Assembly (NCBI GenBank): GCA_030729385.1
Contig: JANQXM010000017.1
Span: forward strand, 1-34,062
DNA: 34,062 nt
Direction: 5' to 3'
Source: Opitutales bacterium
GTDB lineage: Bacteria; Verrucomicrobiota; Verrucomicrobiia; Opitutales; Coraliomargaritaceae
Shown here piece after piece: positions 24,805 to 25,887 of the stretch. The translations under genes were made by a program, and so were the position numbers. Numbering within the stretch: the first letter of the stretch is position 1; the number at the start of each line of letters is the position of its first letter. The notes beneath the pieces are model-generated. The model searched no databases. It was given only the letters and a program-made list of their open reading frames with translations, and was not told where the DNA came from.

Positions 24805-25887
24805 ATGGAAAAAAGTTACACTATCGGCGATAAAACCTTCGTCTTAGATCAAGCCAAAGCTGAAGAAGCTTTTAACGCTAAGAAGATCATTAACGGTAAG
24901 GACACGATGTTCTTCAACATTCTCCCGCTTAAATACGCGTGGGCTTATGATCTCTACAAGACCATGAAGAATAACCACTGGGAGCCAGAGGATATTCCTA
25001 TGCAGAAGGATGTGGAGCTATGGCGTAGTGCTGAGTTGTCCGATGCCGAGCGCTGGATTATTAAGATGGCGATCGGTTACTTTTCAGCTGCAGAAGGTAT
25101 TGTAGGTGACAATATCCAGCACGTCACACGTGAGCTCGTCACCGCACCGGAGTTGAAATTGCTGCTCGGCCGTCACGCCCACGAGGAAAACATCCACGCG
25201 GACTCGCTGGTCTATATGATCAGCTCGCTCGGCATCAACCCGCACGAGTGTGAGGCGATGTTCGAAGACATCCCTACTATTAAGCGCAAGACAGACTTCG
25301 TGGTTAAAAATTCCCGTGGTCTGCGCCGCGACATGGATTTGACCACGACTAAGGACAAGCAAGCGTTCACTAAGAACCTCTTCCTCTTCGGTCAGTGTAT
25401 GGAAGGCACACAGTTCTACGGCCTCTTCGGCATGGTGCTTTCACTTTACCGCCAGAACAAGTTCCCAGGCATCGGTCAAATGTTCCGCTATACATTGCGC
25501 GACGAGTCCAACCATATCGAAGTTTTCCGTAACTTGATCATGGACTTGGTCGAAGAGAACGAAGACGTCTGGACACCAGAATTCAAAGAAGAACTTCGCG
25601 ACCTCATGCGCGAAGCGATCGCTCTCGAGAAAGACTTCATCCGCGACTGCTTGCCGGTTAATTCCGTCGGCCTCAGCGCAGATGAGTTCTGTCAATACTG
25701 TGATTACATCGCAGACCGTCGTCTTGAAGGCGTCGGCCTCGCGCCACTCACACCGGGTGCTGAAAACCCATTCCCATGGCTTGCCGAGATGATGGACATT
25801 AAGAAGGAGCAAAACTTCTTCGAAGGTCGCGTCACCGAATACCAAAAGGCATCCGCCCTCGGTCAAGTCGACGACGACGATCTTTAA
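24805..25887 (+). CDS. nrdB: Ribonucleotide reductase beta subunit, class Ic-like (no radical tyrosine)
   Basis: This 360-residue subunit houses the metal cofactor that starts ribonucleotide reduction in NrdA. The six metal ligands are readable: E97 (FSAAEGIVGDNI), E128 and H131 (HEENIHADSL), E200 (CMEGTQF), and E234 and H237 (DESNHIEVF). In class Ia enzymes the radical Tyr lies four residues after the first ligand His; here that residue is L135 (H131-A-D-S-L135). The first ligand is Glu, as in Chlamydia trachomatis R2, not Asp. Both features indicate class Ic, where an Mn/Fe centre replaces the tyrosyl radical. A Tyr near the C-terminus (Y346, TEYQK) can serve electron transfer to NrdA. Neighbours: nrdA 113 bp downstream, and NrdR-like boxes at the promoter. 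Confidence 0.95.
   Translation: MEKSYTIGDKTFVLDQAKAEEAFNAKKIINGKDTMFFNILPLKYAWAYDLYKTMKNNHWEPEDIPMQKDVELWRSAELSDAERWIIKMAIGYFSAAEGIVGDNIQHVTRELVTAPELKLLLGRHAHEENIHADSLVYMISSLGINPHECEAMFEDIPTIKRKTDFVVKNSRGLRRDMDLTTTKDKQAFTKNLFLFGQCMEGTQFYGLFGMVLSLYRQNKFPGIGQMFRYTLRDESNHIEVFRNLIMDLVEENEDVWTPEFKEELRDLMREAIALEKDFIRDCLPVNSVGLSADEFCQYCDYIADRRLEGVGLAPLTPGAENPFPWLAEMMDIKKEQNFFEGRVTEYQKASALGQVDDDDL

Follow-up and report, generated by a model that had tools for sequence, protein, structure and literature searches.

A predicted tyrosyl-free, leucine-type ribonucleotide reductase small subunit with a linked threonine in the radical pocket and a plausible Mn/Fe cofactor

The window, that is the whole stretch of 34,062 nucleotides analyzed here (contig JANQXM010000017.1 of an Opitutales bacterium), holds the gene for a ribonucleotide reductase (RNR) small subunit (nrdB, R2) and that for a large subunit (nrdA, R1), which starts 113 bases past nrdB. 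The features at the locus are:

24537..24552, plus strand: NrdR-box-like 16-mer 1, TCACAATAAAATGTTA (11/16)
24561..24589, plus strand: sigma-70-like promoter, TGCACA-17-TATAAT, overlapping the boxes; such sites occur at chance level in the region
24568..24583, plus strand: NrdR-box-like 16-mer 2, TTACTACATATAGTGC (12/16)
24599..24614, plus strand: NrdR-box-like 16-mer 3, GTCGTATATCTTGTGT (11/16)
24805-25887, plus strand: nrdB (R2), 360 aa, by Pfam, NCBIfam, alignment with 1syy and fold match
25093..25095, plus strand: codon of E97, the first metal ligand, a position with Asp in Tyr-type R2 and Glu in every Phe, Leu, Val or Ile type seen
25207..25209, plus strand: codon of L135, the radical site; equivalent to E. 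coli Y122 and C. trachomatis F127
25492..25494, plus strand: codon of T230, four residues ahead of ligand E234; equivalent to E. coli I234, C. trachomatis I223 and class Id Thr191
26001..29249, plus strand: nrdA (R1), 1082 aa, with one Pfam ATP-cone at 156-241
29316..29343, plus strand: terminator-like 12-bp stem with a T tail, after nrdA

The three NrdR-box-like 16-mers follow each other in exact 31-base steps upstream of nrdB. In almost every close relative examined, the second and third are found ahead of nrdB in the same register and often score higher, and the first is present in many of the kin too; the NrdR gene is encoded elsewhere in the genome. NrdA has the barrel domain, the motifs SNLCTE and TYYLRT and a C-terminal CxxC (CEAC), and its best solved match is 5im3, which we take to be P. 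aeruginosa NrdA. In the genome, which is 99.59% complete, we found one R2, one class I/II (NrdA/J) barrel, which is the NrdA at 26001-29249, and no NrdD, and nrdB/nrdA is therefore the only RNR found in this marine bacterium. Divergent from nrdB, on the minus strand, lies a gene for an ECF-type sigma factor (23713-24363); behind it, in the same orientation, come two small ORFs, possibly for its anti-sigma partner and a target. On the other side of the locus a GNAT acetyltransferase (29376-29891, plus strand) and a TacA-type antitoxin (PF08681, 29878-30171, minus strand) stand tail to tail with a 14-base overlap, an arrangement that departs from the usual same-strand antitoxin-toxin order.

NrdB matched the Pfam family Ribonuc_red_sm (PF00268, E 3.6e-69) and NCBIfam NF005550 (344 bits, cut-off 309), and its best solved matches by sequence were C. 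trachomatis NrdB 1syy (E 3.7e-82) and 6y2n. The ligand set, from sequence and alignment, is E97, E128, H131, E200, E234 and H237, with 31 residues from E97 to E128 and 34 from E200 to E234, and in these respects (open reading frame, coordinates, ligand residues and spacings) the original prediction was borne out. It had also placed a Leu at the radical site and, as in the chlamydial enzyme, a Glu at the first ligand. This agrees with the 1syy alignment, which is gap-free along the ligand helix and puts L135, the fourth residue past the ligand His H131, on F127 and E97 on E89. In the alignments no Tyr shifts into the radical site of NrdB, as expected for the radical-Tyr-free R2 that had been proposed. 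The nearby Tyr is Y137, which equals chlamydial Y129 and is also present in Phe-type enzymes.

A predicted structure of NrdB (pLDDT 84.5, replacing an earlier model made with close kin alone as input, pLDDT 68.7) was compared with solved structures. The C. trachomatis Mn/Fe NrdB took ranks 1-13 in Foldseek, and VIA gave C. trachomatis NrdB a Z of 41 over 322-326 residues. With the chlamydial class Ic R2 as top match both by sequence and by fold, the class Ic-type assignment is supported, and so is the verrucomicrobial origin, as the kin belong to the Puniceicoccaceae, the Opitutales and the wider Verrucomicrobiota, with NrdB 74-98% identical to that of the window. The cultured Cerasicoccus arenae (L052) has an NrdB with 82% identity. 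At the level of sequence, our results confirm 24805-25887 as a bona fide R2, predicted to be tyrosyl-free.

NrdB resembles the C. trachomatis class Ic NrdB (1syy, 4d8f, 4m1i) in fold, in the Glu first ligand and in a redox-inert radical site. In the alignment W59, Y137, Y229, D233 and Y346 are the counterparts of chlamydial W51, Y129, Y222, D226 and Y338, and Y229, W59, Y346 and Y137 are invariant in 30 kin. The residues that presumably carry the class Ic roles, the Y222 and W51 equivalents and the C-terminal Tyr, are therefore present as Y229, W59 and Y346. NrdB differs from the chlamydial protein by having Leu and not Phe at the radical site, Thr230 and not Ile223, and an acidic DDDL tail, and the two are about 37% identical. 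The pairing of Phe with Glu characterises class Ic (PMC8463856), of which NrdB has the Glu in E97. By RNRdb practice NrdBz are assigned to class Ic, as NrdBzc, if the Tyr site holds "Phe, Leu, or Val" (PMC6370689); the window NrdB falls under this rule, which ignores the Thr/Ile position.

Other classes fit less well. Where class Ia has a Tyr at the radical site and an Asp as first ligand, NrdB has L135 and E97. The plasmid-borne Tyr-type R2 of Pseudomonas and Burkholderia (L186, L185) are related and have the same ligand spacing, but carry Asp/Tyr/Ile, the class Ia pattern, and their NrdA are like 5im3. Class Id NrdB (NrdBi; F. johnsoniae, L. blandensis) is like NrdB in the Glu first ligand and in the Thr at the Thr191 position, which is T230 here, but it has a Mn2 cofactor and keeps the Tyr at the radical position (PMC8463856). 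It also has a Trp at E+7 and, in the studied subgroup, a Lys at E+4, which are linked to superoxide activation (PMC6754362). These marks are absent from NrdB, with L135 for the Tyr, G101 for the Lys (E97+4) and I104 for the Trp (E97+7). R2lox is marked by a Gly ahead of the first ligand and by an Ala for the pocket Phe (PMC7239806) and has no R1 partner, whereas NrdB has A96 and F204, an adjoining nrdA, Y346 and the acidic tail.

The original prediction held that Leu had been described in far fewer members than Phe, which is not the picture in Verrucomicrobiota, where Leu is common and Phe the minority. Every R2 in the 110 loci fetched first had Leu, and the phylum sample together with 40 further regions gave mostly Leu, Phe in 13 (L111-L123) and Tyr in others. 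The totals for Verrucomicrobiota are about 145 Leu rows versus 13 Phe loci fetched, and Leu is the ordinary radical-site residue of this phylum. One verrucomicrobial Leu-type nrdB, 78% identical, was seen on a contig that had been assigned to a Rubrivivax MAG (L077), likely by binning contamination. The Leu-type R2 is a class Ic variant already recognised in the literature. In addition to the RNRdb practice, PMC12918982 gives "phenylalanine or leucine" as Ic reference residues and describes marine viral Ic-like R2 that carry Ile or Val, Burnim et al described class O proteins with "Phe or Leu" as "much like class Ic" (PMC9531940), and Hogbom 2010, cited in PMC3824934, noted Leu, Ile and Val at the radical site. 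In the literature and solved structures searched we found no biochemically studied Leu-type R2.

R2 on viral contigs were found with an alignment of all three types (P0001 as query found no viral relative). Val or Ile stood at the radical site in 72 of the 78 viral R2 read (L235-L314), all 72 with a Glu first ligand and a Thr at the T230 position, and the remaining ones were Phe/Ile (four) or Tyr/Asp (two). In the viral Phe-type R2 of L243 and L276, position 229, a Tyr in NrdB and in Chlamydia (Y222), is occupied by Phe. The viral Val/Ile R2 are probably the same group as the marine viral Ic-like R2 of PMC12918982, which are like NrdB in the Glu first ligand, the aliphatic radical site and the Thr four residues before the fifth ligand, but have Val/Ile in place of Leu and form their own branch in trees.

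The first ligand, the radical site and the residue four before the fifth ligand were read as a triplet in those 257 rows of the alignment that keep the other five ligands. Non-Tyr types were E/L/T (145), E/V/T (44), E/I/T (16) and E/F/I (19), the Tyr types were D/Y/I (26), D/Y/S (5) and D/Y/V (1), and the single R/L/T row is L216, an nrdB with a broken frame. All unbroken R2 in this set combine a non-Tyr radical site with Glu as first ligand and a Tyr with Asp. An aliphatic radical site with Glu was accompanied by Thr at the third position in 205/205 rows, which are related and do not represent 205 independent events. T230 is invariant in the Leu types, and the residue is Ile in all Phe-type Ic seen. 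When the linked sites were tested on independent pairs, the two to three pairs were all concordant, a number too few for significance. The Leu types differ from the Phe types also at the ligand-flanking Q203, N129 and G98. A limited literature search found no description of a Leu/Thr pairing at the radical pocket. The linked Thr site is what this analysis adds, and it makes the cofactor question directly testable.

The third position of the triplet corresponds to I269 of yeast Rnr2, which lies in the hydrophobic pocket round the tyrosyl radical (PMC3824934). By arithmetic on the aligned ranges T230 falls on residue 191 of F. johnsoniae 6cwq. In class Id, whose cofactor is Mn2, Thr191 hydrogen-bonds the unused Tyr104 (PMC8463856). 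L. blandensis class Id (5olk/6sf4), when read by letters, has a Thr four before the same ligand and an Ala opposite Y229, and its alignment gives a Tyr at the radical site. Judged by these residues, the E/L/T enzymes have the missing Tyr and the Glu as in class Ic, and the Glu and the Thr as in class Id E/Y/T. As their features are common to both classes, we hold the Mn/Fe prediction as fairly probable and no higher. In addition, the Ile to Thr change beside the Leu site means that the metal chemistry is not simply transferable from the Chlamydia enzyme.

Phylogenetic trees were built without the trait columns, using Tyr-type outgroups from plasmids and phages. The Leu types formed one clade in two trees (support 97/93 and 100/99). 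A single clade of Phe types was rejected (AU p 0.035, 0.011, 0.002), Phe and Leu as one clade gave AU p 0.019 and 0.085 in two sets, and Phe, Leu and viral Val/Ile as one clade gave AU p 0.021, which became 0.28 once very long Tyr branches were removed. In most trees the Leu types were not grouped with the chlamydial types, an outcome that depends on sampling. This suggests that Tyr may have been lost in the Leu types independently of chlamydial Ic; polyphyly of R2c was reported earlier (Lundin 2010, as discussed in PMC3824934). A firm separation of Leu from viral Val/Ile (AU p 0.008) was dropped, as p was 0.34 without the long Tyr-type branches. Possibly, the Leu-type R2 lost the Tyr independently and constitute, alone or with the viral Val/Ile, a distinct Glu/aliphatic/Thr subclass, where the Thr would tune a cofactor that is not Chlamydia-like (either Mn/Mn, or Mn/Fe whose proton path differs), a proposal that we regard as doubtful.

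In the reading we prefer, NrdB is probably the O2-activated, Mn/Fe, tyrosyl-free R2 of an aerobic RNR that serves as housekeeping enzyme in a Puniceicoccaceae-type bacterium. O2 would build the dinuclear centre of NrdB, which is most likely of the Mn(IV)/Fe(III) kind known from Chlamydia. The one-electron oxidising equivalent would be held on the metals because Leu135 is not oxidisable. The hole would then move by way of W59/D233 to the flexible Y346, on to the YY of TYYLRT in NrdA and finally to the Cys of SNLC. More speculatively, T230 may hydrogen-bond the site-1 metal or relay a proton to it, an idea prompted by the Chlamydia R2, in which no nearby proton donor is readily recognised (PMC11883743). 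The Mn/Fe identity, O2 as oxidant and the hole on the metal are what we infer from the ligands, the lost Tyr, the transfer residues, the coupling of Glu with a non-Tyr site, C. trachomatis as nearest structure, NF005550 and the absent superoxide marks of class Id. The status as sole RNR found, the NrdR gene and the NrdR-like boxes shared with kin also speak for the preferred reading. Against them stand T230, the split between Leu and chlamydial types in the trees and the differences at Q203, N129 and G98, and we consider the Mn/Fe cofactor plausible, not secure. Almost all that is known of class Ic chemistry comes from a single pathogen. The Verrucomicrobiota have many free-living members, the tyrosyl-free form is usual among them and their radical pocket differs at two linked positions, and their R2 are natural material for testing which residues decide between Mn/Fe and Mn/Mn, and what becomes of the proton on metal reduction.

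The Glu first ligand and the Thr that E/L/T has in common with class Id E/Y/T (PMC8463856), and the place of the Leu clade apart from chlamydial Ic in most trees, would also suit a tyrosyl-free R2 with a class Id-like Mn2(III/IV) centre, formed via superoxide or peroxide, in which Thr230 acts partly as Thr191. We find this unlikely, as NrdB lacks the Tyr that is essential for activity in class Id together with Lys E+4 and Trp E+7, has Y229 where L. blandensis has its Ala, and ranks the C. trachomatis R2 first by fold and sequence; furthermore, the class Id alpha is without an ATP-cone (PMC8463856), whereas NrdA here has one. It seems improbable that NrdB is a di-iron enzyme that stores the hole as Fe(III)/Fe(IV) and takes its metal by availability. 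Such a state was once proposed for the chlamydial R2 (references 105 and 106 in PMC4390871), but the active C. trachomatis form is Mn(IV)/Fe(III) (PMC8463856) and we found no feature in the NrdB sequence favouring Fe/Fe.

That either Y137 or Y229 serves as a replacement stable radical site is very improbable despite their invariance in 30 kin, since the C. trachomatis R2 has both (Y129, Y222) yet no stable Tyr radical, and the divergent Leu type L159 has a His at 137. Degenerate R2 copies exist in relatives, which raises the thought that NrdB might be a pseudo-subunit or an R2lox-like oxidase and not a working R2. This is barely credible for a protein that keeps all six ligands, the C-terminal Tyr and the tail, is 74-98% identical in kin and is encoded next to nrdA as the sole R2 of its genome.

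Two kinds of second R2 were found in relatives, and the window's own genome has neither. One of them is located as follows:

L143, 955-2013, and L203-L217 (L216/L217 more distant): ligand-less R2 paralogue

This R2-like gene lies directly upstream of the Leu-type nrdB in 15 relatives of one family (G421, twelve genomes of g223 and two of g222). Its product has Q or G at 97, R or Q at 131, V/I/T/A at 234 and R at 237 and has lost the C-terminal Tyr, whereas E200 and D233 are retained, as is an acidic tail with DL at its end like that of NrdB. In five pairs with unsaturated dS its dN/dS was 0.04-0.075, and the paralogue is therefore under purifying selection. Yeast Rnr4, the beta-prime subunit, has a similar anatomy, and the yeast Rnr2/Rnr4 heterodimer 1jk0 was among the solved-structure matches of NrdB. 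Going by anatomy, the paralogue is a possible bacterial beta-prime, and these ligand-less copies, if paired with nrdB, would be the bacterial counterpart of the yeast subunit. We found no bacterial RNR small-subunit heterodimer in the literature searched (open-licence papers). In L216 the intact paralogue stands beside an nrdB split over two frames, which could be an assembly error. The other second R2 was seen in G166 and G253 between nrdB and nrdA (L141 1947-3029, L142; L223, L224), where it keeps the six ligands and Leu135, with N replacing Y229 and H replacing Y137.
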